This document shows positions 37,164-57,033 of a stretch of DNA of 64,000 nt, piece after piece. The DNA comes from Phycisphaerae bacterium (lineage in GTDB: Bacteria > Planctomycetota > Phycisphaerae > Phycisphaerales > SM1A02): contig JAEUIU010000008.1 of NCBI GenBank assembly GCA_016795065.1, positions 1 through 64,000 on the forward strand, read 5' to 3'. The notes beneath the pieces were generated by a model that worked only from the letters and a program-made list of their open reading frames with translations, ran no database searches and was not told where the DNA came from. The translations under genes were made by a program, and so were the position numbers. Position 1 is the stretch's first letter; each line of letters begins with the position of its first letter.

Positions 37164-38864
37164 GTGCGTCGGTCAGCAGTCCGTGTTTCGAACTTCCTGT
37201 CGCCCGTCGTCACCCGAGGTTCACTCCTCGCCGTGACCCTTCTGGGCGCGTCCTCGCTCGCATCCGCGGGCGGTCTTCCCGTCCCCCAACCTAAGGCTGG
37301 CGCTCCGCTGCCCGGCCTGACCCCGGCCGAGCTGGCTCTTTTCGAAGCCGGCAAAATTCTCTATTCCACCCCACTCGAAGTGGAAGACGGCCTCGGCCCG
37401 ATCTTCAACAAGTCCGGCTGTTTCTCTTGCCACGCGAGCCCGCTCGGTGGTTGGGGTGCCATCACCGTGACTCGTTTCGGCATCGAGAACAAGGGCGAGT
37501 TCGACCCGATGGACTCCCTTGGCGGTTCGCTCAAGCAGGCCGCGGCCATCTCCAGCGGCTGCGAAGAGCTTGATCCCGCCCTCTTCGGCGCGAACCACTT
37601 CGCCACGCGCGTCACCAACGCCTCGCTCGCGTTTGGTCTCGTCGAAGCGATTCCGGATGCCCAGCTCCTGGCCAACGCCGACCCGAACGACCTCAACGGC
37701 GACGGCATCTCCGGCCGAGCCCACATGGTGGAACCGTTCGAGAGCCCGGGCGTTTTGAAGGTTGGCCGAATGGGCTGGAAGGCCCAGGTCCCCACCGTCC
37801 TCACGTTCTCGGCTGACGCGTCTCAGAACGAGCTCGGCCTCTCGAACCGGTTCATTCCGTTCGACAACGCCCCCAACGGCGATATGGTCAAGCTCGCTAG
37901 CTGCGACACCGTGGCCGATCCCGAGGACGGTCCCGATGGTCAGGGGTATGACCGAATCGATCGGTTCACCCACTTCCAACGTTATCTCGGCATCCCCCCG
38001 CAGACTCCGAAGTCGGGCATGACCGGCGAGACCGTCTTCAACGCCATCGGCTGCGCGAAGTGCCACGTGACATCCTTCACGACAGGCAAGCAGCGCACGC
38101 TCGAGAGTGCTCTCCGCGGGAAGACCATTCGGGTCTACTCCGACTTCCTCCTCCACGACATGGGCACGCTCGCCGATGGCATCCCGCAAGGCGACGCCAG
38201 CGGCAGCGAATTCCGCACGCCCACCCTCTGGAACCTGCGCACCCGCGATCCGATGCTCCATGACGCATCCGTGGCTGGCGGCACGTTCCCCGACCGTGTG
38301 ACGTTGGCCATTCAGGCCCACGGCCCGTTCGGTGAAGGCGCCGCTTCGGCGGACGCCTTCGATAGCCTTTCGGTCGTCGAGCAGGAGCAGCTCATTGCGT
38401 TCCTTGACTCGCTCGGACGCCTTGAGTTCGATCACGACGGCAACGGATCCATCCAATACGTCGACTTCCTCGATTTCAAGAACTGCTACGGCACGACTGG
38501 GATCTCCCCGGACATGCCGTGCGCGGTCAGCGACATCGATCAAGACGGCGATGTCGACCTCACCGACTTCCTTGCCATGGAGTCGGTCTATGAGGGACCG
38601 AACGGCGATTGCGACGCAGACGGCAACTCGGATCTCTACGAGCTGCTGGTCGGTACGCTGACTGATGGTGACTTCGATGGCGTCCCCGACGACTGCTCGG
38701 TTCCGTGCCCGGCAGACTTCAACGCCAGTGGAGGCGTCGACGCCGCTGATCTCGCCATCCTCCTCGGAGGCTGGGGCGGATCTGCTCTTGACCTCAACGC
38801 CAGCGGTTCGGTGGATGCCGCGGACCTCGCTATTCTCCTCGGCGCTTGGGGACCTTGCGACTGA
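37164..38864 (+). CDS. Di-heme c-type cytochrome oxidoreductase with dockerin-like tail
   Basis: A 566-residue exported protein of the di-heme oxidoreductase (DHOR, formerly DUF1111 or thiol-oxidoreductase-like) family. The signal peptide covers about 1-36. The heme c motifs are CFSCH (87-91) and CAKCH (298-302). The second half includes FRTPTLWNLRTRDPMLHDASV, whose core LWNLRTRDPMLHD is typical of the family. After residue 440 comes a chain of acidic EF-hand-like loops (DHDGNGSIQ, DIDQDGDVD, DGDFDGVPDDC) and then the twin tail with NASGGVDAADLAILLGGWG and NASGSVDAADLAILLGAWG. I chose GTG 37164 because GAGGAGG lies at 37152-37158. The substrate is unknown. Confidence 0.85.
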   Translation: MRRSAVRVSNFLSPVVTRGSLLAVTLLGASSLASAGGLPVPQPKAGAPLPGLTPAELALFEAGKILYSTPLEVEDGLGPIFNKSGCFSCHASPLGGWGAITVTRFGIENKGEFDPMDSLGGSLKQAAAISSGCEELDPALFGANHFATRVTNASLAFGLVEAIPDAQLLANADPNDLNGDGISGRAHMVEPFESPGVLKVGRMGWKAQVPTVLTFSADASQNELGLSNRFIPFDNAPNGDMVKLASCDTVADPEDGPDGQGYDRIDRFTHFQRYLGIPPQTPKSGMTGETVFNAIGCAKCHVTSFTTGKQRTLESALRGKTIRVYSDFLLHDMGTLADGIPQGDASGSEFRTPTLWNLRTRDPMLHDASVAGGTFPDRVTLAIQAHGPFGEGAASADAFDSLSVVEQEQLIAFLDSLGRLEFDHDGNGSIQYVDFLDFKNCYGTTGISPDMPCAVSDIDQDGDVDLTDFLAMESVYEGPNGDCDADGNSDLYELLVGTLTDGDFDGVPDDCSVPCPADFNASGGVDAADLAILLGGWGGSALDLNASGSVDAADLAILLGAWGPCD

Positions 38865-38981: not shown

Positions 38982-39066
38982 CTTCGACGGAATTGGTGCG
39001 GGTCGCTGCGACCCGCTCGCACTGGAACGAGGCCGAGCACGAGCTTGGTAGCTACAGGAGCCTGTG

Positions 39067-41641: not shown

Positions 41642-41705
41642 GACGCACCGACCGGTACCCTGATGGCGGCGATCTGGGCAATCGCCCTTGCATGCGAGGA
41701 CCGTT

Positions 41706-44700
41706 GTGCAGAATCAATCTGAGTCTGGGGAGGTCGCGTTTGGGTCGCGGGGCGATGCCGACCTTGGCGACGCGCGTTCAACACACCTTGGGGAAGAAGG
41801 TAAGGGCGACACGTCGCGTCATGACGCCATCGAGGTCCTTCTCGATGCCATCTCCTCGGGGAAAGGAGATGTTTGCGAGGAGATCCGCATGTCCTCCGAC
41901 CGCGTTCGCATCGGGGACAAGGTGGCCGACTTCACCATTCTCAGGCGCCTGGGTGGCGGTGGAATGGGCGAGGTTTTCGAAGCGCAGCAGGATGTCCCCC
42001 GGCGAACCGTCGCCCTCAAGGTGCTCCATCCGGAATGCCTCTCCGAGGCTGGCATCAAGCGGCTGCGCGCAGAAGCGACGCTTCTGGATCGGGCGAGGCA
42101 CCCAGGCATCGTGACGGTCTATGGCGCCGGCACCGTCATCGGCCCGGCGGGCCTGCCCATGGCCTACCTCGCGATGGAGTTGGTGGAAGGCGGCTTGCCG
42201 ATCACCGTTGCCGCACGTCGCCTTGACGGCGATCTCACGGCGATCGTTCGGCTCTTCCTTCAACTCTGCGAAGCGGTTGCCCATGCCCATCGCAACGGCG
42301 TGGTTCATCTGGACATCAAACCCACCAATGCCTTGGTGGGACGCGATGGTGCCGTGAAGCTCATCGACTTTGGATTGGCGCGCGCCGCCGAAGGTGTCGT
42401 CCCTCGAACAGACTGTCCGAGTGGCTCCACTGGTTGGATTGGCACGTACGAGTATATGGCGCCTGAGCAGTTTACTCATCGCACAGAGCAATGTGGCGCT
42501 CGAGCAGACGTCTATTCGCTCGGCGTTCTCATGTATGAGCTACTAACTGCGCGCCGACCTTTGAACATTTCGGGCCTTAGTCCGTTCGAAATCGGGCAGC
42601 TCCTTAACTCGGCTGTGCCGGCGCCCGCATCAACCGTCTGCCGTGACATCCCTGACGACGTCTGTGCCGTCGCGGCAAAGTGTCTTGAGCCGCTAGCCGA
42701 TATGAGGTATTGCGATGCCATCGAACTTTGCGATGACATGATTCGCCTATCGCGCGGAGCCAGCCCCGTCGCTCGCCAAAGCCTGTCCGGTCGTACACGC
42801 CGATGGGTCAGATTGCACAGTCGCGCTCTTCTGCTGATTCTCTCACTTGGGTTGGGAGTGTCATTGGCGATCCTGGGAGCTAGTGCCTGGAAGCAATCGC
42901 GTTCCGATCTCTCGACCGCGGAGGATCGCCTGACAGCGTCTTTGATGAGAGACGCCTCCGCGGCTCTCGCGCGAGGAAGCCTCGCATTGGCCTCAATGTA
43001 CTCAAGCGGGACACCGCTCAGATATTGGGAAAACACGGCGATAGAGGCGATTGCCTCAAGGCCATTGTTTGAGGCCTCGCTTGGCGTACCAATCAAGGCT
43101 GCTGAGTTCGGCCCTAACGATCAAACAATCACGGTCGCACTTCCGGAAGGCCGTATTCGACAACTGTGCCTCCAGCCAGGACTTGAGCCACCTGACCCGA
43201 TTTCCACCGGTTTTGAGCTTCATCGCATGACCCGCTTAAAGGGGGCAATCGGCCGCTACTGCTTTTGCCGCTCCGATGGCGTTATAGAACTTCGCAACTG
43301 CGCCGATCTCTCTACGGTCACACTTGTATCAGGGATCGATCTGGCCATGTCGCCGGACTCGCTACGGTGCGCTACTCTTTACACCGACAGTTTGGAGGTC
43401 ACTTCTATCGCCCTCCCTCCTTACGCTGTCTGCACAATCCCATTGCAAGGCAGGAACAACGGACCAATCGCGTGGCTCTCCAATTCAACGCTCGCGCTCG
43501 CCACTGACGGCTGTCTTCGGACCTTCGACGTCGAGAGGGGAACGGAGATTCTGGATGAAGGCAAGACTCCCCCTAGCACCGACGCAGTCGTTATGGCCTG
43601 CCTGATTGCTTCACCCGCGGGACTACTTCGCATTTCACGAGACCGAGGGCTTGAGCTGCTTTCCGACTCAAAGTGGCAACAATTTCCGGACGCGAGCTAT
43701 GGGCCTGCCGTTACCTCGGCGTCGGTTTCCTCCGAGGGAGACCGAATTGCCTTGGGACTTGCGAATGGCGCATTTGTGATATTTGACTTCGGCACAGGGC
43801 GCTACCAATGCAATACATCGGCACACTGCGCCGCCACAACGTCGATTTGCTGGTCAAGCAATGACGAGTTCATAGCAACTTCGTCGGCGGATGGCCGCGT
43901 TTGCATATGGCCTTCATCCCAAGATCGGCTTTGCCCGCGCTCGGACAGTCGTCTAAACCTCGGCCTTGAGATCGCGTCCTTCGCAGCCTCTACGACCGGG
44001 GACACCCTGGCCCTATTCACAAGTGACGGGGACCTCTATCACGCCCGACTCCGTCCAGAATTCGCGAAGACCGTCGTTTGCCGTGTTCCCGGCCTTCATG
44101 GCCCAGTTGCGATTAGCATAGATGGCAATATGGTGGCGTGGGCAACTCCAGAATCGCTCATGCGGGCGGATGCGCCGAATTTCGAGGTTGTGGAGATCGC
44201 ACAAACTTCGGATCTCGTGATCGCCATGGCCTCACTTCATGATTCACTGATAGTCTTGGATGCCGGAGGAGTTCTATGTCGGTTGGATACTCGGACAGGA
44301 AGCGAAGTATGGGTTGCGCCTCCGATCCAACTTGATCCGAAAGAGGCCCGCATCGTTCGGTCGGACGAAGCGATCATTGTGGTTCAAACGAGCGATCCAG
44401 ATATCTCAGCAATTGCCTTTGACGCAAGATCTGGCCGAATCGTGTCTAAAGCGGCGTTGCCGAGGTCTCTCGCACACACCAAACCGGCACTCAACTATTC
44501 GCATAGTCGCAACACCTGGTATTGGATCGACAACGGCGGAATTGCGCGTGCTCTTCCTGAGATTAGCCCCGTACAGGATCCGCTGCGCAGCAACATCACG
44601 CGCGCCGACGCGGGGTTCTTGATTGTGCCAGATGAGTCTCGCTTGATTGCGACAAGTGCGCTCGGACATCCTACTGTCCTTAGCCCGGACACCCTTGAGT

Positions 44701-44906
44701 TGCGAGCGTGGATGGAGGCCCCTCCCATCGCTGCGAAGTGGGCGGTTCTGTCTCCGGAGACGCAGGTTCTCACGATTGCAGCGTCGTCTGGCGAGATTCG
44801 GCAGTACAACGCACCGTCGCCGTTTCGGCAGGCGCCCTACTACTGGGAACCCCACTTCGACGAGGGGAAGCTGGGCTTCCGGCGCATCCCGCCCCCAAAG
44901 AGGTGA
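41706..44906 (+). CDS. Membrane Ser/Thr protein kinase (non-RD) with C-terminal propeller-like sensor
   Basis: A 1066-residue protein. The kinase domain (about 70-345) has the glycine loop LGGGGMGEVF, VALKVL, LIDFGLA and YMAPEQF. The catalytic loop reads VVHLDIKPTN, so the usual Arg before the catalytic Asp is Leu: a non-RD kinase. One membrane helix (about 370-392, LLLILSLGLGVSLAILGASAW) is followed by about 650 residues of strand-rich sequence resembling WD40 or quinoprotein-like propellers, probably outside the cytoplasm. GTG 41706 is chosen because GAGGA sits 5-6 nt before it; TTG 41688 is an alternative. From about 42.5 kb the coding sequence has visibly lower GC and less biased codons than the neighbours. 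Confidence 0.82.
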   Translation: MQNQSESGEVAFGSRGDADLGDARSTHLGEEGKGDTSRHDAIEVLLDAISSGKGDVCEEIRMSSDRVRIGDKVADFTILRRLGGGGMGEVFEAQQDVPRRTVALKVLHPECLSEAGIKRLRAEATLLDRARHPGIVTVYGAGTVIGPAGLPMAYLAMELVEGGLPITVAARRLDGDLTAIVRLFLQLCEAVAHAHRNGVVHLDIKPTNALVGRDGAVKLIDFGLARAAEGVVPRTDCPSGSTGWIGTYEYMAPEQFTHRTEQCGARADVYSLGVLMYELLTARRPLNISGLSPFEIGQLLNSAVPAPASTVCRDIPDDVCAVAAKCLEPLADMRYCDAIELCDDMIRLSRGASPVARQSLSGRTRRWVRLHSRALLLILSLGLGVSLAILGASAWKQSRSDLSTAEDRLTASLMRDASAALARGSLALASMYSSGTPLRYWENTAIEAIASRPLFEASLGVPIKAAEFGPNDQTITVALPEGRIRQLCLQPGLEPPDPISTGFELHRMTRLKGAIGRYCFCRSDGVIELRNCADLSTVTLVSGIDLAMSPDSLRCATLYTDSLEVTSIALPPYAVCTIPLQGRNNGPIAWLSNSTLALATDGCLRTFDVERGTEILDEGKTPPSTDAVVMACLIASPAGLLRISRDRGLELLSDSKWQQFPDASYGPAVTSASVSSEGDRIALGLANGAFVIFDFGTGRYQCNTSAHCAATTSICWSSNDEFIATSSADGRVCIWPSSQDRLCPRSDSRLNLGLEIASFAASTTGDTLALFTSDGDLYHARLRPEFAKTVVCRVPGLHGPVAISIDGNMVAWATPESLMRADAPNFEVVEIAQTSDLVIAMASLHDSLIVLDAGGVLCRLDTRTGSEVWVAPPIQLDPKEARIVRSDEAIIVVQTSDPDISAIAFDARSGRIVSKAALPRSLAHTKPALNYSHSRNTWYWIDNGGIARALPEISPVQDPLRSNITRADAGFLIVPDESRLIATSALGHPTVLSPDTLELRAWMEAPPIAAKWAVLSPETQVLTIAASSGEIRQYNAPSPFRQAPYYWEPHFDEGKLGFRRIPPPKR

Positions 44907-45202: not shown

Positions 45203-47110
45203 TCAGCTACCTTCCTGTTCGATCACGTTGAGCCGGTCCACGCGAACCGATCCACCGTCGATGACCTGCTCGCTGCCGTCAGGCCAGCGAACTCGCAAAG
45301 TATCGATGGCCGCTGCCTCTCCAAGGCCGAAGGTGACGATCTTTTCCGAAGCGGAGAGGTAACTTCGGGTCGGCATGACTTGCTTTCGCCGCGCTCGTCC
45401 CTCGGCAATGACGTCAATCTCCGCCCCGATGGCATCACGGTTCTTGCCCTTGCCCACCAGCTTGATTCGGATCCAGTGGTTTCGATTGGCCAGGTCGTTG
45501 CGAAGGAAGTAGGGGATCCCCTTGGGCTGAACGATCATCAAATCCAGATCCCCGTCGCCGTCGACATCAGCGAAAGCCATTCCCCGCCCGATCATCTCAT
45601 TGGTCAGGTCGCCCGCTTTTCGGCCGGGCAACTCGCAGAACGCCTGCCCATCCGGTGCAAGCCCCGCAATGTTGCGGAAGAGTTGACCCGGTTGGCGGTA
45701 CCGCTGGCTCTGGTAGGTCCGGTTGATCTCCTCCTCGATGTGCCCGTTGCATTGGAGGAGATCCTCCCATCCATCCAGATCGGCATCGATGAAGAGGACG
45801 CCGAACGTCAACACGCGGCGCGTCGCCGGCCCGATCCCCTCGGGAATGGCGTCGTCAGCAAAGCGAAGGGCCTTCTGGTCGTCACCCTTTCGCGAGACGT
45901 AGAGGGCACTCATCTCGTTGGCGAAGTTGCCTATCGCCACTCCGAGCCGACCATCGTCGCGATACCACGAGGCGTCGATTCCCATCGCTCCGCGAGCGCT
46001 TCCCGCCCGATCGAAAGCGAATCCCGAACGGCGCCCGACCTCCTCGAACGTGCCGTCGCCCTTGTTCCTGAAGAGGAAATTCACAACGCCATCATTCGCA
46101 ACGAGGATCTCAAGAAAGCCGTCCCGATCAACGTCGACGAAGGTCACGCCGAGCGACTTCCCGACCGGCTTTCCGGTTGCCTCGTTTCGCACCTGGATGC
46201 CCGCTTCGACCGAGACATCCTTGAAGGTGCCGTTGCCTTCGTTACGCCAGAGGAATGAATCGGCCCCGGCAAACCCGGTTGGTGGCCCATACGCCCGACC
46301 GCTTCCGGTCAGCGAGAAGCCCACCTTGCGATCGATCTCCGGCGACCACTCGACATAGTTGCACACGAAGAGATCGAGGTCTCCATCGCGGTCGAAATCG
46401 AGAAAGCCCGCCGATGCCCCCCACTGCGACTCCTTTGGAATCGCCTGATCCGTGACGTCCTCAAATCGCGGTACCCCGCGCATCTCAGTCACGTTTCGGA
46501 AGAGCCGATCCTGCCCCACGGCACTGATGAAGACATCCGACTTCCCGTCGCCGTCATAGTCCCCCACCGCCACGCCCATGCCTTGCATCGGGACGTCGAT
46601 TCCGCTTCGATTCGTCGCTTCGGCGAACTGCCCCTTGTTGAGGTTCACATAGAGATGTGGCGATGGCTGGATGGCGGCCTCGGTCCTGTTCCAAGGCCAG
46701 TGATCGCCGTTGATGAAGAGAACATCCGGCGTATCGTCTCCATCGAAGTCCGCAAGGGCCACCCCCCCGCCCATGGTCTCGGGCAGCAGCTTCTCGCCCG
46801 TCGCTCCGTTGGTCCGCTCGAAGTTGATCCCCATCGACGGCCCCGTCTCGGCGTACATCACCTCGACGATTGCCCCTGGAGGAACGGCCTTGGCGCCGGT
46901 AGGCGCGGGAACTGGCTCCACCGGACGAACCGGATCCGGCTTTGGCCGTGTCAGCCACCAAGCCCCGCCGGCGATAGCGCCCACCAAGAGGAGAAGGGCG
47001 ATCGAAGCACCGACCGCCTTGCCGACGCGACGGTCGGCGGCGGCAGCCTCCTCGGCCGTCGCATTGGTTTCCGGCAGCCGATCCGACTCAGGGTGATTCG
47101 CGTTGGTCAT
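45203..47110 (-). CDS. Membrane-anchored FG-GAP/ASPIC-UnbV protein
   Basis: A 635-residue protein with a polar cytoplasmic N-terminus, one membrane helix (about 33-53, ASIALLLLVGAIAGGAWWL) and a Pro-rich linker. Six calcium loops of the FG-GAP/VCBS type follow (DFDGDDTPDVL, DYDGDGKSDVF, DFDRDGDLDLF, DVDRDGFLEIL, DADLDGWEDLL, DVDGDGDLDLM). The C-terminal ASPIC/UnbV domain has RDAIGAEIDV and VRWPDGSEQVIDGG. The ATG overlaps the TGA of the pentaheme cytochrome gene by four bases, so the two products are made together. It is the last gene of the long minus-strand run. Its anchoring suggests a stable membrane-side partner of the cytochrome; this is inferred. Confidence 0.85.
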   Translation of the reverse strand: MTNANHPESDRLPETNATAEEAAAADRRVGKAVGASIALLLLVGAIAGGAWWLTRPKPDPVRPVEPVPAPTGAKAVPPGAIVEVMYAETGPSMGINFERTNGATGEKLLPETMGGGVALADFDGDDTPDVLFINGDHWPWNRTEAAIQPSPHLYVNLNKGQFAEATNRSGIDVPMQGMGVAVGDYDGDGKSDVFISAVGQDRLFRNVTEMRGVPRFEDVTDQAIPKESQWGASAGFLDFDRDGDLDLFVCNYVEWSPEIDRKVGFSLTGSGRAYGPPTGFAGADSFLWRNEGNGTFKDVSVEAGIQVRNEATGKPVGKSLGVTFVDVDRDGFLEILVANDGVVNFLFRNKGDGTFEEVGRRSGFAFDRAGSARGAMGIDASWYRDDGRLGVAIGNFANEMSALYVSRKGDDQKALRFADDAIPEGIGPATRRVLTFGVLFIDADLDGWEDLLQCNGHIEEEINRTYQSQRYRQPGQLFRNIAGLAPDGQAFCELPGRKAGDLTNEMIGRGMAFADVDGDGDLDLMIVQPKGIPYFLRNDLANRNHWIRIKLVGKGKNRDAIGAEIDVIAEGRARRKQVMPTRSYLSASEKIVTFGLGEAAAIDTLRVRWPDGSEQVIDGGSVRVDRLNVIEQEGS

Positions 47111-50016
47111 CGTGCCTGCCCATTCCCCGCGCTCGCAACGGGCTCAGCCGTCGCGGTACCGGCGACCGCCTCCTCCGGGAGCTCGAATGCCCCGGAGCGG
47201 TTGAGGTCGTGGAGAACGATCGCCTCCGCGGCCCGGTCCGCCGCAGGATAGCGAATACGCGCCGCATTCACCGCGACATCGCGTGCGTTGTCATCGGGAC
47301 GGTAGACATTGTGAAGCGACCGATGCTTCGTCGCCAGCACCGAATCGCCCTTCGACTCATACACCTGGGCGAGGAGGTAGTGGGCAGACGCATGCTCGCT
47401 GTCCTCCTTCAGCGCTGCTAGCAGATGGGCTTCCGCCTCAGTCAAAAGCTCCGCCCGATTCGCGTTAGCGCCGCTCCCGGTTCGGCTGATCTCCAGAAGC
47501 GTCTCCGCCAGCTCCACGCGCACACGGTCGTCACGCGAGAAGTCGAATCCCCGTTCGCGGGCCAGCGGCCACGGCGTTTCGATCACCTGGCGGAAATAGT
47601 TCACGGCTTCGTCGAGGTTGCCCTGCTGCTTCGCGACCAGTCCGCCGAACCAGGCGATCGACCATGGGTAGGCTGGCGGGTCGTGCTTCGCCGCACGACC
47701 TAACGCTTCGACCGCCTCTTCGACACGCCCCTCACGCAAGTACACGCGGGCGAGCCCAAACGGCCCCTCCGCTCGCTTCAGCGCCTCAACCCTGGCGAAG
47801 GCGGCCTCGGCCTGCCTCAGCTCCCCCTTGCCTGGTCCACGATCGGCAGTGCGCAGGAGCCCTATGCCGTAGTCGTACCAACGTTGCCAAGGCTCGATGG
47901 GCGAGACCTGTGCGTCCGCGATTGCAGTGACCGATCCGCTCGCCCCGCGCACGGGCAAGGTCAGGGTGTCCGTGGCAAAGGTGGCAATGGGAAGATCGTT
48001 GTATGCACGATCCGGGAAGACGTGCTTCAGATAGGCGGTGTCGAACTTGCGATAGCGCAAGGCCACCGAGATCTCGATCGGCCCGCTGACGTCGTCGGGC
48101 ACGCGCAACGCGAAATGCGAGATGTCCGCAGCGCCGGGTGGGATCTGGTTGTTGTAGAGGGGAACGAAGATGTCTTGCGGGTTTCGCCGGTCGATCCGCT
48201 CGCCATGTCGATCGAGCATGAACACGTTGAAGTACTTTGCCCAAGGGTCCACGGACCCATCTGGCCCGAGGCCGCCGCTACGCCCGATCACCTTGCCGCC
48301 GGCCCGCACCGTTACGTCCAGCCAGATCTCGTTGCTGTCGGACGTCCCCTGCGTGAACTCGTGCCCCATCTTGACGGTACGAGTGACGACGTCGACGACG
48401 TATCGCTTGCCCGCCTCAAGCGTCGGCACCTCCGGCCGAAGCGGCGCGACCAGCGGATCGTCAAACTCAGGCCCATCGTGGATCCCGACGATGTCGACTC
48501 GCATCACGCCCTTGTTGAAGGCGTCGACCGCCTCGATCATGGCCTTCCCCTCGGGCATGTTGAGCACATGATGGACGGCCGTGTTCGCGCTGACGAACAT
48601 GTGATCCGCAATCGTCAGCTCGCCTCCGGTGACCTTCGCCCCGAAGTCTCCGCTGGCGATCCGCGGCATGTGACAACCGTTGCAGTCGGGTTCGGCCTTT
48701 GATGGGTAGTACCACGATGCGACCCCGTGTCCCGAAACGCCCGAGAGGCGGAACGGATCATAGTGGTTCTGCCCGCGCAGCCACTTGTAGTCGTTCACCT
48801 CCGCCGGGAGATTCACCTTGTGGCAGGTCGAGCAGAACTCGTCACTGCGATGCACGTTCGGCTTGAGGAAGGTCCGGGCATGGAAGGCCGGTTTGGCCTT
48901 GATGAGCTGCCGGTTGACCCACCGAAGGAAGTCTGACTCGCTATCGGTGAAGGGATAGTGTGGCGCCTCCTCGATGGTGTATTCGCCATTGCCGCGCGTG
49001 CCGTCAATATGCACGATCGAATGGCAGGCGGTGCAGGTCAGGCTCGCCTTCCCTAACGGGTCGCCCGCGATGTCGTAGTCCGGATCATCCCACTTGGGCT
49101 CGTCGAAGGCACCGGAGAAGAACGGCACCGGATCATGGCACGCGGCACAGAAGCGGCCGTCGCGCACGTTCCCATCCCGTTCGAAGCCGACGCGGCGCGT
49201 CTCACGCACCGAGAAGGCGTAGAACGGGTTGTTGAAGCTCGACATCGCATGCATCGAGTGCGTCCAGGTGTGATAGGCATCCGGATGGCATTCGAGGCAA
49301 TACTCATTCATCATCAGGCGCTCCGCCGGGATGAAGTTGCCCGTCGCGGTACGAGCCAGCGAGGGTTCGAAGTACTCGGCGCCGGACTTGGGACCGGGCT
49401 GGTTCGAATGCCGCGGATCGAGCGAGTGGAAGGCCGCCATGATGATCGCGGCGCTCGCACCCACGAGTCCCCAGCCGATACCGATGCGCCACTTGATCCT
49501 CCGACCGGCCATCCGATGGAGCACGAAGAGCCAGATCGCCACGATCGGGGCGATCACGTGCATCCAGTAGATCACGTTTCGCTTCGACGGGTCCTTGATG
49601 TTGATCGTCAGTCCACCGACGTCGAGCCGCGTCAGGGCGAATCCAGTCCCTAACAGGACGATTGCGATGATGAGAAGCGCCCAGCCGACCCGCTTTGCCC
49701 AAGGGTTCGGGCGGTTCATCGCGTTTCGGGCATGGAAGATCCCGAAGGCGATGACTGGCAGCGTGATGACGAGGCCCATCGCGATGTGGGCGGCGAACAT
49801 AAGGAGGTAGAAGTAGTTCTGGTACTCCGCTCCCGTGCGCCACTCCATGAAGGTGATCGCGGCGAGATAGGCGCTGTTCACGCCCAACAGGGCGAAGAGT
49901 CCGAAGACCAGTGCAAGCAGCAGTTTCAGTCGCGGACCGACCACCGGGACAAAACGCGGACGCGCCGCGGGTGCGGGTGGCACTTGGTCGCGCGCCTGGC
50001 TCGGATTCGTGCTCAT
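47107..50016 (-). CDS. Membrane-anchored pentaheme cytochrome c fused to TPRs
   Basis: A 969-residue fusion. Five membrane helices (about 31-52, 67-95, 108-129, 147-168, 175-196) carry histidines at 77 and 95 in helix 2 and 153 and 167 in helix 4. That arrangement could hold b hemes or a quinol site. The periplasmic part has five heme c motifs: CLECH (240-244), CAACH (290-294), CTACH (328-332), CSTCH (395-399) and CNGCH (445-449), plus many free His as possible distal ligands. A beta-rich segment follows (about 510-700), and then TPR-like repeats (GPFGLARVYLREGRVEEA, NLDEAVNYFRQV, AHYLLAQVYESKGD). I infer electron transfer from the quinone pool to an extracytoplasmic acceptor. Overlap with the ASPIC gene and a 51-bp gap to the preceding lipoprotein gene support one complex. 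Confidence 0.88.
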   Translation of the reverse strand: MSTNPSQARDQVPPAPAARPRFVPVVGPRLKLLLALVFGLFALLGVNSAYLAAITFMEWRTGAEYQNYFYLLMFAAHIAMGLVITLPVIAFGIFHARNAMNRPNPWAKRVGWALLIIAIVLLGTGFALTRLDVGGLTINIKDPSKRNVIYWMHVIAPIVAIWLFVLHRMAGRRIKWRIGIGWGLVGASAAIIMAAFHSLDPRHSNQPGPKSGAEYFEPSLARTATGNFIPAERLMMNEYCLECHPDAYHTWTHSMHAMSSFNNPFYAFSVRETRRVGFERDGNVRDGRFCAACHDPVPFFSGAFDEPKWDDPDYDIAGDPLGKASLTCTACHSIVHIDGTRGNGEYTIEEAPHYPFTDSESDFLRWVNRQLIKAKPAFHARTFLKPNVHRSDEFCSTCHKVNLPAEVNDYKWLRGQNHYDPFRLSGVSGHGVASWYYPSKAEPDCNGCHMPRIASGDFGAKVTGGELTIADHMFVSANTAVHHVLNMPEGKAMIEAVDAFNKGVMRVDIVGIHDGPEFDDPLVAPLRPEVPTLEAGKRYVVDVVTRTVKMGHEFTQGTSDSNEIWLDVTVRAGGKVIGRSGGLGPDGSVDPWAKYFNVFMLDRHGERIDRRNPQDIFVPLYNNQIPPGAADISHFALRVPDDVSGPIEISVALRYRKFDTAYLKHVFPDRAYNDLPIATFATDTLTLPVRGASGSVTAIADAQVSPIEPWQRWYDYGIGLLRTADRGPGKGELRQAEAAFARVEALKRAEGPFGLARVYLREGRVEEAVEALGRAAKHDPPAYPWSIAWFGGLVAKQQGNLDEAVNYFRQVIETPWPLARERGFDFSRDDRVRVELAETLLEISRTGSGANANRAELLTEAEAHLLAALKEDSEHASAHYLLAQVYESKGDSVLATKHRSLHNVYRPDDNARDVAVNAARIRYPAADRAAEAIVLHDLNRSGAFELPEEAVAGTATAEPVASAGNGQAR

Positions 50017-50067
50017 GATCCGATTCTACGGCGAAGTTGCGGCACGTTGCACGCCACACGTCATTCG

Positions 50068-53000
50068 CTATCGCCCATCGCGGTAACGCGTGTTGAACCG
50101 ACGATGGAGCTTCTCCGATTCTGGAGTCGAAGCCCTACCATCGCGTGTGGGTAAGGGGCCGACGCTCTCGCCGTCGCGGGTGAAGAGGTCGTAGTCCTTG
50201 CACCAACCGTCGATCTCGAGGATGAACCTTCGCTCACCGCGGATTAACGATTCGCTCAGCCCGACCTGATCGCCCGCGCTCTCCGGCGACGCGAATCGCA
50301 ATCGAATCTCCTCACCCGGGCCGAAGATCGCGACGGCGTCGTCGGTCGCGGCCAGCAGCGCCTCACAGCGACCGAAGGCGGTGTAGAAGCCCGGCTGGCA
50401 GCGGACATCCCATAGCGGCAAGCGACGCTCATAGACGTAGTCGGGCCGCTTCTGTGCGTGGGTCGTCCGCTCCGCGAACCCGACCTCCTGCACGCTTGCT
50501 CCAAGGAGCGGCAACGCCGTCCTCTTCACCTCCGGGCATGGCTCGACACCAGCCACGAGGAGAGCGTCCCAGTAGATCTCCTGATTGGTCGTCATGCGCA
50601 GGGCCGTCGTGCCCGACGGCAGGTCGCCCAGGGGGAACGACATTTCGCGAGGCATGCCTGCGGGGTAGCCCCACATCGGCGACAGCGTCGTCCAGCTTCC
50701 ATCCCTGCCGCGAGCCTCGAGGTTCGGTGCGGCGAGCGTCACGCCCGCCTGCCAAGCGGCGAAGTTCGTTTGGCAGTAGGGATACTCAACCCAACCGTGG
50801 ACGACCAGGGTCGGTGTGCCCGGAAGCCCATCCACGTCACGGTCGAACTCCAAGGTCACCGTCGTCGGCTCACGGAGGTAGCCGATGAACCGCGGGTCCA
50901 CGTGGTCAAGCGGCGCGGCGCGACCGTCTGCATCCAGCAGGTCCGCAGTGAGATCACGTCCGGCTGCGTTGTAGGCCCTCGCCGGTCGGATCGACTCGCG
51001 ATAGAAGCGTGGTTCGCCCGTCACATCGGGGCCGCCGAGTCCCATTCGCTCATCGATGGTCATCGACCAGCCCGGTGGCAGGTCGAGGATGACCAGTCGC
51101 GCCGCGTCGAGGTAGCAGGCCTCTTCCATCGGCTCCGCGAGACGAATGTCGAAGGCGCCGTCGCGGGCCACCGGCAAAAGGTCCTTGGGGAAGAGCACAC
51201 GCTCCCACGGACGCGGCGGCGCGTACTCACCCGGGGCGACCAGGTACCCGAGCCCACCGACGCCCAGGCAGTCGGTGACGAATCGCTGACGTTCGCCATC
51301 CCACACGAAGATCACTGGACAGGAGCTGATCTGACGCTGCGTTTCGGTGAGGAGGTGCGTCGCACCGGACGCGAGGTCCATCTCACTCTGATAGACCCCG
51401 TCTGACCACTCCATGGCAATGAAGGCAGCGCTAGCCGCATCGCCCAAGCCCACGGCGATCGGCAAGAGCGACTGGCCCGGTCCGCTGGTCGAACGGAAGG
51501 TATCACCTCCGCACCAATGGGCTCCGATGCGTGCGCTGAAGAGCGTCCCGATGCCGCTGGCGTTGGAACGCATCGCCAGCGACGGATCGGTGCGACCCGC
51601 GAAGCGAAGCGTCGCGAACGCCGCCCGACCCGGCCCGGGCTCGAGGATCGCGAGCCCGGCCTTGCCCAAGAGAGCGACCGCGGGTCCGCGTTCGCCTTCG
51701 ACGAAAGTCGACCAGGCCATGGCTCCCCCACTGTGGCTCACCCGCTCGATCACGTTGCCTTCCAGCGTCGCGACGATGAGGCCAGCCTCGTCAACGGAAA
51801 GGAGATCCATCACTCCGTCGCCATTCACATCGCCCACCGCGACGGCTGGCCGGACACCCGTGGACGTCGACACTCCGGCCGTCGACGATCCCTCCCATGC
51901 GCCTCCCTTGCGGGTGACGAGCCTGATGGCTCCGTCGCGTCCGACCGTGACGATCGAGGGCTCACCATCGGCGTCCCAATCGCCCGCGATCGCTCCGGCG
52001 AGGGTACCGACCTCGAGTTCGCCCGCGTCGACCTTTGTGTAACGCCAGAGGCGATCGTTCGCGAGCAGTTCATTCGGCGGTTCGGCGTGAATCAGGAAGA
52101 TGTCCGCGTCGCGGTCGCCGTCCAGGTCGTTGACGAGCACCGACGTCGCGGGTCGACCGTCGCCTGCGGCACCCGAACTTGACCCGATCGCCCGGAAGGT
52201 CCCGTCGGCGTTGTTGGAGAGGAGTTCGCTCGGCCCATCCGCGTTGCACAGGAAGAGGTCGAGGTCACCGTCGTGATCGAGGTCGGCCATCACGCCATCG
52301 ACGGTGTCGCGATTGCCCCCGTCGGTACCGGAGGTCGCGGGGGCCGCGTGGAACGCGCCTTTGCCGTCGGCCAGGAAGAGTTGGTTCTCACCCTTTCGAC
52401 AGAGATAGACATCGGTGTCGCCGTCGTTGTCGATGTCACCCCAGAGCGCACAGCGCACGTCGCGCGGCTCGCTCAAGGGATGACCCGTCGCCACGGTGAA
52501 ACGACGATTCCCTGCCCCGAACAGGACGACATTGCCGCCGCCCGCTGCAGCGTGCGCAGCGAAAAGGTCGTACTCCCCGTCCCCGTTGATGTCGGCGACG
52601 GAAAGCGTCGAGCGATCGCTGACCTCCCACGACACGGCGCCGTCGAGCGTCCAGGCTCCCTGACGGAAAATCGCGCCACTTGGCGAGGTCGTCGAGGCGA
52701 CTCGCTCTCCGCTGTCAAGCGGCAACGCGACCTCGGCAAGCTCTCCCATCCGCGTGTACTTGAACTCGGCAAGCCGAGCCCGCGGGTTGTTGGCCAGAGC
52801 CTGGAATTGCTTGAGATACTCGTCGGATTCACGCTCCCGCCCGGCCCGAGCCGCAAGCCGCTGCATGCCCAAGAGCGGTGAACGGAGCATTGGATCCGCG
52901 GCGGAGCTCGCCGAATAGCGGGCAACAGCTCCTTCGGCATCGTCGGCAAACTCAAGGCACTGCCCAAGGTAGTAGAGGGCGTAGGCGTCCCCTGGCCGCG

Positions 53001-53478
53001 CCGTGACGACGCGCTCAAAATGCGGCTTCGCAAGATCGGGTTCGCCAAGGAAGAGCCGAGCAAGCCCAATGCAATAGTGCGTCGCGACATCATCGACGTC
53101 GGAAAGGAGAAGCGGCTCTAACAGTTCGATCGCCCGTTGCTGCGCTCCCTCTTCCGACTGGTTCAGCCGGGCGATGGCCCGGTTGCGCGTCGCCAAGCGC
53201 CGCAGGTCGGCCAGCGACGCGTCCGCCGTCGGAATCTTCTCCGCGGCGAAAGCGAACTCGGCCTCCGCCGCCTCGAAACGAAACTGTCCCATCAGGCCCG
53301 CGCCGCGATTGAGCGCCGCACCGACCTCGGCCTTGGCCGGATCGGTCACCGTCTCACCGGATGGCTGATCCTTCGTGGGTGGCGAAGGCCGCTCCGGCAC
53401 CTTGGGCGCGCTTGGGTCCGTCCCTCCACAGGACACGAGCAGCATGGCAGCGCCGATGAATCCGGCTCGCAGCGTCAT
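50068..53478 (-). CDS. Large TPR plus FG-GAP lipoprotein (ASPIC-related)
   Basis: A 1136-residue lipoprotein (lipobox LVSC, Cys 17). TPR-like helices occupy about 50-230 (FRFEAAEAEFAFAAEKI, ALYYLGQCLEFADDAEGA). FG-GAP loops follow from about 290 to 560: DINGDGEYDLF, DIDNDGDTDVY, DLDHDGDLDLF, DLDGDRDADIF, DWDADGEPSIV and DVNGDGVMDLL. The next 100 residues resemble an ASPIC/UnbV module (NASGIGTLFSARIG). The last 380 residues form a domain I do not recognise, with several Cys and Trp (WVEYPYCQTNFAAW, DVRCQPGFYTAFGRCEALL). It overlaps the nitrilase gene by four bases. The head-to-tail order with the pentaheme cytochrome and the second FG-GAP protein suggests a joint envelope machine. Confidence 0.83.
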   Translation of the reverse strand: MTLRAGFIGAAMLLVSCGGTDPSAPKVPERPSPPTKDQPSGETVTDPAKAEVGAALNRGAGLMGQFRFEAAEAEFAFAAEKIPTADASLADLRRLATRNRAIARLNQSEEGAQQRAIELLEPLLLSDVDDVATHYCIGLARLFLGEPDLAKPHFERVVTARPGDAYALYYLGQCLEFADDAEGAVARYSASSAADPMLRSPLLGMQRLAARAGRERESDEYLKQFQALANNPRARLAEFKYTRMGELAEVALPLDSGERVASTTSPSGAIFRQGAWTLDGAVSWEVSDRSTLSVADINGDGEYDLFAAHAAAGGGNVVLFGAGNRRFTVATGHPLSEPRDVRCALWGDIDNDGDTDVYLCRKGENQLFLADGKGAFHAAPATSGTDGGNRDTVDGVMADLDHDGDLDLFLCNADGPSELLSNNADGTFRAIGSSSGAAGDGRPATSVLVNDLDGDRDADIFLIHAEPPNELLANDRLWRYTKVDAGELEVGTLAGAIAGDWDADGEPSIVTVGRDGAIRLVTRKGGAWEGSSTAGVSTSTGVRPAVAVGDVNGDGVMDLLSVDEAGLIVATLEGNVIERVSHSGGAMAWSTFVEGERGPAVALLGKAGLAILEPGPGRAAFATLRFAGRTDPSLAMRSNASGIGTLFSARIGAHWCGGDTFRSTSGPGQSLLPIAVGLGDAASAAFIAMEWSDGVYQSEMDLASGATHLLTETQRQISSCPVIFVWDGERQRFVTDCLGVGGLGYLVAPGEYAPPRPWERVLFPKDLLPVARDGAFDIRLAEPMEEACYLDAARLVILDLPPGWSMTIDERMGLGGPDVTGEPRFYRESIRPARAYNAAGRDLTADLLDADGRAAPLDHVDPRFIGYLREPTTVTLEFDRDVDGLPGTPTLVVHGWVEYPYCQTNFAAWQAGVTLAAPNLEARGRDGSWTTLSPMWGYPAGMPREMSFPLGDLPSGTTALRMTTNQEIYWDALLVAGVEPCPEVKRTALPLLGASVQEVGFAERTTHAQKRPDYVYERRLPLWDVRCQPGFYTAFGRCEALLAATDDAVAIFGPGEEIRLRFASPESAGDQVGLSESLIRGERRFILEIDGWCKDYDLFTRDGESVGPLPTRDGRASTPESEKLHRRFNTRYRDGR

Positions 53479-54461
53479 GAGAGGTTCCTCCGTCCCGACT
53501 CGATGCGAGCCCGAATGGAGGCGTCCGTGATCGGAGACTCGACGCCGCGCGGCAGGACGGCGCGTTGCATGTACGGATAGGCCTCGCTTCTCAGGTGACT
53601 TCGCATGTCATGGCCGATGCGCCGGATCCGTTCGGCCCGCAGTGCGGCCAGGTCGATCGGGGCGACCACCACCTTCTCACCGGCTCCTGGATCGGCCTGG
53701 GCAAGGATGCGGCCGTCGAAGTCGACCGCCATGCTTCCACCCGGCCAACTGAAGGGCGGGTATCCCTCGAGCGTGGCGCCTTGGTTCGCCGCGACGACAT
53801 ACATCGTGTTCTCGACCGCCCGCGTCCGATTGATGAGAGTCCACCAATCCATCGGCGGCGTCGCGCCCCACGGGTCCATGTAGGCGGAGATGCGAATGCC
53901 AACCTCGCAGCCGTTGAAGGCAAGCTGGCGGATCGCCTCGGGGAAGAGCCAGTCATAACACGTCGCCACGCCGAGCGCACCGAGTTCGGTGGTCACCACC
54001 GGAAAGAGTTCGTCGGGATAGTCGGGAATGTCGTGCGGACTGGAGTGGATCTCCCACGGCAACCACGGATTGACCTTTCGATAGATGCTCAAAACGCCGC
54101 TGGGGCCAACGAGCGCTGTCGAATTGAAGACGCGACCGGGCATATCCCGACGCCGTTCGATGAAGGAGCCGGTTTGGATGTGGATGCCGTACTTTCGGGC
54201 CAAGGCCACGTAGCGATCGGTGTGCTCGTTGGGCAACTCCACCGCCAAGTGGCGATCCAACTCCGCGACACTCGTGTAGACCGGCGCTGCGTGAGCGAAC
54301 TCGGGGAACGCGAAGAGCCGCACGTCGAAGAAGGGTTCGTATCCGACGATGGTCCCCTCGACCATCGCGACCATCCGGGTCACGCGGTCGGCGATCTCCT
54401 CGCGCTTCCGCGGACAGGGGAAGCTCGTCTGACAGGCGGCTGCGTGGTAGCGATCGGTCAT
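53475..54461 (-). CDS. Carbon-nitrogen hydrolase (nitrilase superfamily)
   Basis: A 328-residue enzyme of the nitrilase superfamily, whose members hydrolyse nitriles, amides or carbamoyl groups through a Cys-Glu-Lys triad. The triad is visible: Glu 54 in AFPEF, Lys 129 in YRKVNPW, and Cys 168 in TCYDWLFPEA. The motif CYDWLFPE points to the aliphatic amidase or carbamoylase side of the family rather than true nitrilases. Length is standard. It is translationally coupled to the TPR/FG-GAP lipoprotein by an ATGA overlap and follows iscX by 42 bp. The substrate is not determinable, and its link to the cytochrome genes is unexplained. Confidence 0.88.
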   Translation of the reverse strand: MTDRYHAAACQTSFPCPRKREEIADRVTRMVAMVEGTIVGYEPFFDVRLFAFPEFAHAAPVYTSVAELDRHLAVELPNEHTDRYVALARKYGIHIQTGSFIERRRDMPGRVFNSTALVGPSGVLSIYRKVNPWLPWEIHSSPHDIPDYPDELFPVVTTELGALGVATCYDWLFPEAIRQLAFNGCEVGIRISAYMDPWGATPPMDWWTLINRTRAVENTMYVVAANQGATLEGYPPFSWPGGSMAVDFDGRILAQADPGAGEKVVVAPIDLAALRAERIRRIGHDMRSHLRSEAYPYMQRAVLPRGVESPITDASIRARIESGRRNLS

Positions 54462-54503
54462 GGGAGTGTCCCGGCGGTCGAAGGGTGCCGTTGCGACGGC
54501 GGG

Positions 54504-54710
54504 TCACTCGCGTTCGTCGATCCACGCCTGTTGGATGGCCTCGAGAATGCGTTCGTTGCATGGATGTCCCGGCAACTCCGCAAACCCCGGGAGCGCGGTG
54601 ACGAGCGCCTTGAGGGTCGGGAAACTGACCGAGACGGGATCGGTCTCGGGGTGGCGTTCGGCGAGTTCCTCACCGATGCGCTGGACATCAAGCCAGTGGA
54701 AACGGTTCAT
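54504..54710 (-). CDS. iscX: Fe-S assembly protein IscX
   Basis: A 68-residue acidic protein matching IscX (YfhJ) in length and pattern. It opens FHWLDVQRIGEELAERHPETDP, in which the key part is W-x-D-x-x-x-I-G-E-x-L and the D-P pair. It continues VSFPTLKALVTALPGFAE and ends NERILEAIQQAWIDE, the conserved acidic C-terminal helix. IscX binds the desulfurase IscS and modulates cluster assembly. It lies directly downstream of the ferredoxin gene, as in classical isc operons, but iscS, iscU and hscBA are absent here. Confidence 0.88.
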   Translation of the reverse strand: MNRFHWLDVQRIGEELAERHPETDPVSVSFPTLKALVTALPGFAELPGHPCNERILEAIQQAWIDERE

Positions 54711-54756
54711 GATCCTGAGGCGACTCCTGAGCGCGACAACGACCGGCCTTCGGCAC

Positions 54757-55158
54757 TCAGTGGGGGATTTCCTTCACGGCGTTTCGGTTCCAGGCCGGCA
54801 CGCGCACGACGATCGGCCCCGTACCCTTGATTTCGCACTGGCAGGAAAGCCGACTGCTGCGACGGAGGCCGGGGGCCTCCTCGACGCGATCCTCCTCCGA
54901 TTCGGTCGCCTCGGTGACTTGGTCCATCCCCCGCTCGACATACACATGGCAGGTCGAGCAGGCACAGACGCCACCGCAGGCATGCTCGATGTTGATGCCG
55001 TTGTCGATCGCCACCTCAAGGAGCGATTCGCCCTCGCCGCCCATCACCGTCCACTCCTTCTTCTCGGTCCCAGTGAGCCCCTCGGGGTCCTCAAGGTGGA
55101 AGGTGATCGGGACGATCGGCGGGCCGTGATGATGGTCGTCAGAGCGCTTCAGGTGCAT
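54757..55158 (-). CDS. fdx: [2Fe-2S] ferredoxin, isc/adrenodoxin type
   Basis: A 133-residue ferredoxin. The cluster ligands follow C-x5-C-x2-C-x35-C: Cys 61, 67, 70 (ACGGVCACSTCHV) and Cys 106 (LSCQC). The adrenodoxin-type acidic helix lies before the last ligand (EATESEEDRVEE). In Isc systems this protein supplies electrons for cluster assembly. A His-rich N-terminal extension (DDHHHG) of about 15 residues precedes the fold. The ATG at 55158 fits the fold. A TATGAT -10-like box at 55192-55197 gives a leader of about 26 nt. It is the first gene of the minus-strand run that continues to the cytochrome genes. Confidence 0.92.
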   Translation of the reverse strand: MHLKRSDDHHHGPPIVPITFHLEDPEGLTGTEKKEWTVMGGEGESLLEVAIDNGINIEHACGGVCACSTCHVYVERGMDQVTEATESEEDRVEEAPGLRRSSRLSCQCEIKGTGPIVVRVPAWNRNAVKEIPH

Positions 55159-55252: not shown

Positions 55253-55855
55253 ATGCGTTCGCAAGGCGCGTCGATGCGCGTGGTCCTGACTCTTCTCGTA
55301 GCCCTCCTCGCCGGAGGCCTGGCGGGCAGCGCCGCCGCGCGCCCGGACGAGGCATCGACACGGCCGAGCGTCACGATCCGACTCCAGTGGGACGGCTACT
55401 CCGACGGGGCCGAACTCCTCGCGACACCCGAAGGCCCCCGCTATCGCATCAGCCGCACCGACGGATCGTCCGAGACCCTGACCCCCGAGGAGTTCGCCCG
55501 GCGTTCGATCGAAATCGACGGGCAGCGATCGGTGTTCGAGCGGGCCCTGAATGTCCATGGTCCCGTCGGCATCACTTGGGTGCTCTTCGGTCTGCTTGGG
55601 CAGGCGATCTTCATGGGTCGCATGGTCGTCCAGTGGCTGGTCAGCGAAAAGAGCAAGCGTTCCATCGTGCCGCCGACCTTCTGGTTCCTGAGCCTCGTCG
55701 GCAGTCTCATGCTCCTGACCTATTTCGTGTGGCGATGGGACATCGTTGGCATGCTGGGCCAGAGCCTCGGGACGGTGATCTACGTGCGCAACATCATGCT
55801 CATCCGGCACCACAAGCGGGTGAGTGAGCTCGAGGCCGAGGCGGCCCCGGCATGA
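55253..55855 (+). CDS. Membrane protein with lipid A biosynthesis N-terminal (LAB_N) domain
   Basis: A 200-residue exported or membrane protein. A signal-like helix (about 8-28) precedes a short periplasmic domain (about 30-100). The LAB_N domain follows with three helices: GLLGQAIFMGRMVVQWLVSEK (core GQAIFMGRMVVQW), SIVPPTFWFLSLVGSLMLL and MLGQSLGTVIYVRNIMLI. This domain occurs next to or fused with lipid A enzymes, but its activity is not established here and no lpxB follows. An ATG at 55274 with AAGG upstream is an alternative start. The stop overlaps the rlmN ATG by four bases. Confidence 0.8.
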   Translation: MRSQGASMRVVLTLLVALLAGGLAGSAAARPDEASTRPSVTIRLQWDGYSDGAELLATPEGPRYRISRTDGSSETLTPEEFARRSIEIDGQRSVFERALNVHGPVGITWVLFGLLGQAIFMGRMVVQWLVSEKSKRSIVPPTFWFLSLVGSLMLLTYFVWRWDIVGMLGQSLGTVIYVRNIMLIRHHKRVSELEAEAAPA

Positions 55856-57033
55856 GCGATGCAAACGGTGAGCAGGTCGGCATCCTTGGGCTGACGCTCC
55901 AGGAGTTCCTCGCCGTCGCGCTTGAGCGAGGCGTGAAGCGTCCGCGGGCGACAGAGTGCTATCGCGCGGCCTTCCGCCAGGCGGTCGCGCTCGAGCCATG
56001 GATCGCCGTCGCGCCCGCCAGCATCGTCAACGCCCACGTCGAAGGCCCTACGTCGAAGTTCGTCCAGCGCCATGACGACGGCCTCGAGACCGAGTCGGTA
56101 CTCATCCCAATGCGCCACCGCAAACCCGGTGGCGACGGCGAGGTCACCCACACCCTCTGCGTCTCGAGTCAGGTCGGCTGCGCGATGGGATGCACCTTCT
56201 GCGAGACGGCTCAGATGGGCTTTCTCAAGAACCTCACCCCGGCCCAGATCGTCGGCCAGTGGTTCGCGGCGACGCACCACCGCGGCGTGCGCCCGAAGAA
56301 CATGGTTTTCATGGGGATGGGCGAGCCGATGGACAACCTCGACGCGGTGACCCAGGCCATCCGCGTCCTTTGCGACCACGATGGGGCCGGGATGGCCTCG
56401 TCGAACATCGCCGTCTCGACCGTCGGCCGCGTCGAAGGCATCCGCCGCTTCGCCGCATTCGTCCGTGAGAAGGGCTTTCACCGCTGCAATCTGGCAGTGT
56501 CCCTGAATGCACCCAACGACGAGATCCGCTCGCAGATCATGCCCATCAACCGCAAGCATCCGATGGCCGAACTGCGCGAAGCGATGCTGGCCTTCCCGCT
56601 GCGCTCCTCGTCGGCGATCTGCGTCGAGTACGTCCTGATTCCCGGCGTCAACGATGCCTTCGAGCACTGCGACGAGCTCTGCGCGTATCTCCGGCCGGTG
56701 CGCTGTTCGCTGAACGTCATCCCATACAACCCGCGACGCAACTCGCCGTGGCCAGCCCCGACCGAGGAGTCGGTCGCGGCCTTCATCGAGCGCGCCGCAA
56801 CGAACGGCCAGTTCGTGAAGCGCCGTCAGACCAAGGGCCGCAGCGTGATGGCCGCGTGCGGACAGTTAGGGAACGAGCACATCCGACAGCGGAAGCGGGT
56901 GACGCCGACGGGGCCGGAGGTTTCGCAGAGCGTGATGCACAACGTGGTGCCAAAGGTGCCGCCAATCGTGCCAATGCTCGACCTCACCGTTCATGGACGT
57001 CGGACCGACCTGCCCACCGAGGGCTCGTCATGA
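55852..57033 (+). CDS. rlmN: 23S rRNA / tRNA adenine C2-methyltransferase RlmN
   Basis: A 393-residue radical SAM methyltransferase that methylates C2 of A2503 in 23S rRNA and, in some bacteria, A37 of tRNAs. The radical SAM motif C-x3-C-x2-C is CAMGCTFC (Cys 110, 114, 117). The second catalytic Cys is in SVMAACGQL (about 336). SAM contacts are in MGMGEPMDN, and SVGVND-type motifs appear as LIPGVND. A C-terminal extension of about 50 residues follows the family core. It is coupled by ATGA overlaps to the LAB_N gene before it and the ABC exporter after it. Confidence 0.92.
   Translation: MSDANGEQVGILGLTLQEFLAVALERGVKRPRATECYRAAFRQAVALEPWIAVAPASIVNAHVEGPTSKFVQRHDDGLETESVLIPMRHRKPGGDGEVTHTLCVSSQVGCAMGCTFCETAQMGFLKNLTPAQIVGQWFAATHHRGVRPKNMVFMGMGEPMDNLDAVTQAIRVLCDHDGAGMASSNIAVSTVGRVEGIRRFAAFVREKGFHRCNLAVSLNAPNDEIRSQIMPINRKHPMAELREAMLAFPLRSSSAICVEYVLIPGVNDAFEHCDELCAYLRPVRCSLNVIPYNPRRNSPWPAPTEESVAAFIERAATNGQFVKRRQTKGRSVMAACGQLGNEHIRQRKRVTPTGPEVSQSVMHNVVPKVPPIVPMLDLTVHGRRTDLPTEGSS

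Follow-up and report, generated by a model that had tools for sequence, protein, structure and literature searches.

Gene content of the locus

The 64,000-nucleotide stretch analysed here (the window, on contig C5 of a 5.0 Mb genome in 89 contigs) comes from a Phycisphaerae bacterium of the phylum Planctomycetota and carries a row of six minus-strand genes. Its core is a pair of adjacent genes, one for a large multiheme cytochrome with a predicted b-type membrane domain (CYT) and one for a propeller protein (ASPIC). The six genes and the parts of CYT are:

54757-55158, minus strand: fdx, ISC-type [2Fe-2S] ferredoxin; most likely a neighbouring housekeeping gene, not core
54504-54710, minus strand: iscX, Fe-S assembly protein IscX; most likely a neighbouring housekeeping gene, not core
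53475-54461, minus strand: NIT, nitrilase-type amidase (CN_hydrolase); co-occurring partner with formamidases as nearest solved structures
50068-53478, minus strand: TPRFG, lipoprotein-like, 1136 amino acids, with TPR, FG-GAP, an ASPIC-like stretch and an unassigned C-terminal part; family-level partner
47107-50016, minus strand: CYT, 969 amino acids, with predicted b-type membrane domain, pentaheme c part, beta domain and TPR; core gene
49417-49944, minus strand: CYT residues 25-200, five helices, predicted diheme b domain with H77, H95, H153 and H167
47947-49329, minus strand: further part listed within CYT
47227-47892, minus strand: CYT residues 709-930, TPR helices, likely docking platform
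45203-47110, minus strand: ASPIC, FG-GAP/UnbV_ASPIC (CRTAC1-like) propeller with an N-terminal hydrophobic segment; core gene overlapping CYT by 4 bp

All six frames are open and lie head to tail, with gaps of 46, 42 and 51 bp and two 4-bp overlaps, just as the original prediction had described them. The Pfam names are Fer2 for fdx, Fe-S_assembly (IscX) for iscX, CN_hydrolase for NIT and FG-GAP_3 with a weak TPR match for TPRFG; CYT combines TPR with five CxxCH motifs and ASPIC combines FG-GAP_3 with UnbV_ASPIC. The domain identities proposed earlier were confirmed with two corrections: the N-terminus of CYT has five long helices with hydrophobic peaks, forming a membrane domain, and the propeller part of TPRFG runs on into an ASPIC-like stretch (profile match, residues 289-712). 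The gene order is not due to chance, as orthologues retain it in many genomes. A promoter and terminator scan was uninformative (promoter-like sites 0 versus 1.2 expected, terminator-like sites 5 versus 5.7 expected).

CYT and ASPIC form a conserved pair across the phylum

For comparison we used 151 genomes of the order, 46 from the window's family (f1) and 105 others, as well as 343 from the phylum, some of them on a single contig; many of the genomes are drafts. Orthologues in the order were called at E <= 1e-190 for near full-length CYT and E <= 1e-100 for NIT, and in the phylum at E <= 1e-40 for both. Per genome we scored five CYT candidates in the order and two in the phylum, four for TPRFG, and up to 14 (order) or 6 (phylum) for NIT; absences are provisional because these first-look candidates were few. 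One locus from each of 38 other CYT genomes of the order was added to the window (39 loci) and genes were mapped by tblastn. Gene-order counts use only loci with room, for CYT 1.5 kb downstream or 3 kb upstream. Outside the family, 40 hand-chosen CYT loci were fetched of 90 genomes (31 with a near full-length match, 9 weaker) and 31 NIT loci of 37 genomes. The alignments hold 38 of 39 cytochrome frames (A3; L074, cut, omitted), 30 of 35 ASPIC frames (A4; L057, L058, L061, L063 and L077 omitted), 29 of 31 TPRFG frames (A2; L053 and L078 omitted) and the 25 NIT frames on cytochrome loci (A1; six on other contigs, L101-L106, omitted). An extended CYT alignment of 78 sequences joins the 38 of A3 to 40 phylum members.

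Near full-length CYT was found in 39/151 genomes of the order, namely in 37/46 of the window's family and in 2/105 others (G030, G089), and CYT occurs in 94/343 genomes of the phylum. ASPIC lies at most 700 bp downstream of CYT in 34 of the 38 order loci with room, 36 of which belong to the window's family (misses L057, L059, L062 and L086). The pair is phylum-wide: ASPIC is the next gene after CYT in 35/38 phylum loci from other families with room, L163, L165 and L183 being without it. Clustering of the frames of at least 100 residues in the phylum CYT loci brought out no other gene widely common to them; besides CYT and ASPIC themselves, the clusters present in at least five loci were a TPRFG relative, in 5, and one antisense shadow. 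The core module is CYT-ASPIC, because this pair is kept in other families while TPRFG, fdx, iscX and other genes are not. The earlier idea that the last genes of the row form a conserved membrane redox unit is supported.

ASPIC belongs to the UnbV_ASPIC (CRTAC1-type) proteins, having FG-GAP repeats and a PF07593 score of 65 bits (cut-off 23.4). At a threshold of 1.6, a hydrophobic segment near the N-terminus, starting some 12-40 residues in, is present in 22/23 linked phylum frames and 25/30 family frames (A4). Judged from the sequence, it is probably a membrane anchor, with a signal peptide as the alternative. The genome holds 12 ASPIC genes, and in the stretches read only the window's copy and one on contig C19 adjoin a gene with five CxxCH motifs. 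The C19 locus (L087) is a paralogous pair, in which a pentaheme protein has the same four membrane histidines and the propeller frame overlaps by 4 bp. Another such pair is carried by G013 (L088); near it lies a third pentaheme frame of uncertain start (L088:4293-7136) with R at the place of H77 and M at that of H256.

Some loci show additional genes. An arginine-repressor (ArgR) gene stands between TPRFG and CYT in L055:9766-10233 and L060:9827-10291; like a PF03601 gene in L070, these look like insertions. A short, possibly secreted protein with CGDYL or CGEYL (by eye) precedes CYT in L158, L162, L164, L166, L168 and L169. The CYT-bearing contig L046 is titled as a Gammaproteobacteria metagenome-assembled genome and may be a misassigned planctomycete contig.

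CYT has a predicted diheme membrane domain and five c-heme motifs

Across the 78 aligned CYT sequences 60 positions are invariant, and 23 of these are heme ligands. All five CxxCH motifs are present in 78/78. Residues 25-200, folded into five helices in the models, contain only nine invariant positions, four of which are histidines: H77 and H95 in helix 2 (68-99) and H153 and H167 in helix 4 (143-169), each identical in 78/78. Even the nine most distant members, with 20-27% identity in the membrane region, retain them. Two histidine pairs in transmembrane helices, able to hold two hemes, are a feature of quinone-reactive diheme cytochromes b such as b6, FdnI and HyaC; CYT has two such pairs, and heme binding by them is predicted. 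The top-ranked structural matches of the membrane-domain model are b cytochromes, at modest scores. No curated b-cytochrome model came above its cut-off for the window's CYT, and the best distant member reached 21.7 bits against PF01292 (cut-off 30.1). Hence we class the domain as working like a diheme cytochrome b and not as a member of that family. Because invariant histidines are kept in a divergent five-helix domain with b cytochromes as structural matches of modest score, we predict that CYT joins a cytochrome b reactive with quinol or quinone to a pentaheme domain and TPRs.

The pentaheme part matches the fold of pentaheme cytochrome c552; for the full CYT model, the 50 Foldseek matches listed are TPR proteins. 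To the multiheme selenoproteins MccSep and ExtKL there are weak sequence matches. Outside the CxxCH motifs, H256, H379, H472 and H552 are invariant, whereas H418 is found in 67/78 and H389 in 66/78. Since five c hemes face four invariant extra histidines, one c heme would be without a fixed histidine as sixth ligand. Its sixth position may be open or taken by another kind of ligand, and the heme could then serve as a substrate site or an exit site.

The amidase and TPRFG accompany the pair in part of its range

NIT is a CN_hydrolase protein (PF00795, 124.8 bits, cut-off 23.2) in which E54, K129, E137 and C168 are invariant in 25/25 frames (A1); we take these positions to be the active-site residues of the nitrilase superfamily. 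Its nearest PDB entries are formamidases and some sources label its relatives formamidase, but against the formamidase AmiF equivalog NF009803 it scores 93.1 bits where the cut-off is 406. In the order, the orthologue occurs in 31/151 genomes, all from the window's family and 31/31 also with CYT; the next distinct nitrilase follows at E 1.2e-22 and 34% identity. TPRFG lies at most 570 bp behind the amidase in 27/29 family loci with room. In the phylum, 40/343 genomes have the amidase and 35/40 of these also CYT (G156, G207, G257, G284 and G448 have no CYT match). Fisher's test gives p about 2e-17, uncorrected for descent, and family f23 alone contributes 13 genomes. All 15 amidase families (15/15) contain CYT genomes and 14/15 have a genome with both; counting only the 59 strong cytochromes, the overlap with amidase genomes is 27/40. 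The original prediction had tied an amidase to the cytochrome unit, and both the linkage within the family and the co-occurrence in the order and the phylum bear this out. Outside the family, neither CYT nor fdx nor iscX was seen near the amidase in the stretch read (0/31 loci); a TPRFG relative lies within about 400 bp in 7/31 (3 on the opposite strand) and one at 2.0 kb. NIT has no export signal by eye and is unlinked to CYT outside the family. It is likely that the amidase shares the physiology of CYT and likely that it is not part of the membrane complex.

Two observations stand beside these counts. A minus-strand frame of about 308 residues follows the amidase in the outside-family loci L110, L111, L112, L114 and L131, the copy in L110 having a DsbA-like CSWC. 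In G030 (locus L053), CYT is present and the nitrilase-type orthologue absent; an unrelated AS-family amidase (L053:8845-10323; PF01425) stops about 30 bp short of the CYT frame, its score lying far below the cut-off for GatA. Being a single case, the latter was not used as evidence.

TPRFG has a lipobox (LVSC, by eye), TPRs, FG-GAP repeats and the ASPIC-like stretch; the C-terminal part (about 720-1136) received no Pfam name. Many proteins are related over residues 620-1136: of 7995 scored, 1744 reach E <= 1e-10. Strong TPRFG matches (E <= 1e-60) occur in 37 of the 39 CYT genomes of the order, with weaker ones in G111 and G089 (1e-45 to 1e-47); remote relatives are found in G034 and G066, which have a distant CYT paralogue only, and also in G093 and G144, where CYT found no match. 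TPRFG lies at most 800 bp upstream of CYT in 25/35 order loci with room and in 0/34 loci with room from other families. The loci of four g12 genomes (L079-L082) have fdx ahead of CYT but neither the amidase nor TPRFG; in these genomes TPRFG is on another contig. TPRFG is linked to the CYT-ASPIC core mainly in the window's family.

The fdx-iscX block is separable

Divergent from fdx lies one further gene that belongs to this part of the locus:

55852-57033, plus strand: rlmN-like radical SAM gene; old neighbour of fdx-iscX

It is RlmN-like at 244.2 bits, below the cut-off of 290. The ferredoxin scores 93.8 bits against the ISC ferredoxin TIGR02007, below the cut-off of 132.1 yet with this as the best family by far, and IscX passes TIGR03412 (86.1 bits, cut-off 40.4). 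The single IscU-type scaffold gene found in the genome lies on another contig. Within the family, fdx is at most 520 bp from the amidase in 15/30 loci with room and iscX at most 300 bp in 13/31. IscX is present in 78/151 genomes of the order, 59/105 of those outside the window's family, and in only 17/31 amidase genomes, none being found in the other 14. The block also exists without the rest: in G023 and G120, which have no CYT, rlmN and fdx-iscX are intact, and in G105, of the window's genus, an MsbA-like ABC gene, rlmN, fdx and iscX stand together on another contig. Among 11 iscX loci outside the family, fdx adjoins iscX in 4 (G019, G034, G059 and G020), while no fdx was seen in 7, and none of the 11 has the amidase. 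In the stretches fetched outside the family, no fdx or iscX match at E <= 1e-3 appeared in the 31 amidase loci or the 40 CYT loci.

Because the block occurs without the rest, IscU is encoded elsewhere and the linkage to the amidase is partial, fdx-iscX is most likely an adjacent iron-sulfur/rRNA housekeeping block lying next to the amidase in some members of the family. We therefore rejected it as a core part. The original prediction had counted both proteins in the complex; comparison of neighbourhoods shows an adjacency to amidase or CYT that, in the stretches fetched, is not kept beyond the window's family.

Other genes near the row

The first of the remaining genes faces the row:

39064-41580, plus strand: 838-amino-acid FG-GAP protein, convergent with the row; possible extra partner

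Related frames, some partial, occur in 20/39 compared loci. Between this gene and ASPIC lies a Ser/Thr kinase with a WD40-like propeller (41688-44906); in relatives such as L050, ASPIC and the FG-GAP gene adjoin directly. A second envelope cluster at 33705-38864 consists of an FG-GAP/ASPIC protein (33705-35702, minus strand), a TPR protein (35539-36585, minus strand) and a di-heme oxidoreductase (DHOR) with a dockerin match (37011-38864, plus strand).

Comparison with known systems

The inner-membrane cytochromes CbcL, MtrH and MtoC of Geobacter and others join a diheme b-type multi-helix domain to a multiheme c domain in one polypeptide, and an exchange of electrons with the quinone pool has been proposed (PMC9129911, PMC6295460). 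CYT resembles them in combining a membrane b-type domain (predicted) with a multiheme c domain in one protein. The arrangement differs: CbcL has nine c hemes first and then six C-terminal helices, while CYT has five helices first, then five c-heme motifs, the beta domain and the TPRs, with a propeller gene behind. The CbcL/MtrH/MtoC order, with c hemes first and a HydC/FdnI-like C-terminal domain, is not that of CYT, since in each of the 78 sequences aligned the c hemes come after the membrane domain. Cytochrome c552 of Thermochromatium tepidum (PDB 5ze8) is a 435-residue chain in which no TPR part or membrane b domain was matched; its identity to CYT is 19%.

A CRTAC1 FG-GAP gene is reported to flank hydrazine-synthase-like multiheme genes of clades I-III (PMC12758564), and the loci are alike in having a CRTAC1-type gene beside a multiheme gene. 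Here the neighbour is, however, a membrane b/c5-TPR cytochrome, and the likeness drawn is one of gene neighbourhood. NIT resembles the formamidase/aliphatic amidase branch (PDB 2dyu) in its CN_hydrolase family and its invariant Glu, Lys, Glu and Cys; unlike formamidases it is far below the curated cut-off and forms its own conserved clade. Among 120 listed relatives of CYT, database names, where given, are TPR repeat, multiheme c-type, cytochrome c554, DUF1109 or hypothetical protein. Literature searches, most subscription journals being outside their reach, found no published description of the CYT-ASPIC pair. Thus, the fusion of diheme b and multiheme c and the CRTAC1 gene beside multiheme genes are already known, whereas a b/c5-TPR cytochrome with a propeller partner is apparently undescribed.

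Discussion

We consider it fairly probable that CYT is a b/c-type cytochrome that links the quinone pool to the periplasm by electron transfer, the propeller being its likely partner. The four membrane histidines would bind two b hemes, and these would trade electrons with quinol or quinone and be connected to the five periplasmic c hemes, to which the electrons would run; oxidation of quinol would be the more likely direction than reduction of quinone. The TPR tail and the probably membrane-anchored propeller could dock a periplasmic partner. In the window's family TPRFG is likely a scaffold, and the amidase, probably cytosolic and of the Cys-Glu-Lys type, would cleave an amide to ammonia and an acid.

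CYT might instead be a periplasmic pentaheme enzyme, working through an open heme as a reductase or an oxidase, whose membrane part is a mere anchor without quinone chemistry. The shortage of invariant extra histidines, the c552 fold and the weak match to ExtKL and MccSep are consistent with this, but an anchor alone needs no four invariant histidines paired in two helices, and we regard such an enzyme as unlikely. Still less probable is a system for envelope assembly or adhesion, in which CYT would provide redox sensing or maturation and not respiratory flow: TPRs and propellers do make up a large share of these proteins and 10/12 ASPIC genes have no pentaheme neighbour in the stretches read, yet heme ligands account for a large share of the invariant positions of CYT (23/60), and CYT and ASPIC stay together across the phylum. 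That all six genes build one redox complex, in which Fdx and IscX would provide the cytochrome and the propellers with clusters or electrons, is very improbable despite the head-to-tail order, the short gaps and the proximity of fdx and iscX to the amidase in about half of the family loci, as no IscX was found in 14/31 amidase genomes, the block is unlinked outside the family (0/31 and 0/40), occurs without CYT and, in the same genus, on another contig, and Pfam shows no Fe-S protein among the other four products. What stood of the original six-gene complex are the CYT-ASPIC core and the association of the amidase, while fdx-iscX membership fell. Gene-order reasoning from a single genome can draw likely housekeeping neighbours such as these into a system.

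Beyond the electron-transfer role that we favour for CYT, a larger and doubtful idea, to which we give little weight, would be an undescribed, phylum-wide respiratory complex: a single polypeptide leading from quinol to a pentaheme part, with a catalytic heme open at one ligand position, working with a calcium propeller and coupled in many lineages to an amidase that supplies or clears a nitrogenous substrate. It would amount to nitrogen-linked respiration, with the CRTAC1 neighbour shared with hydrazine-synthase relatives.

In conclusion, since CYT occurs in 94 of 343 sampled genomes and its membrane histidines are identical in every aligned sequence, the CYT-ASPIC pair is probably an electron-transfer unit that is important in a major environmental phylum and has been overlooked. 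We know of no bacterial function for CRTAC1-type propellers, and the pair offers a testable role for them.
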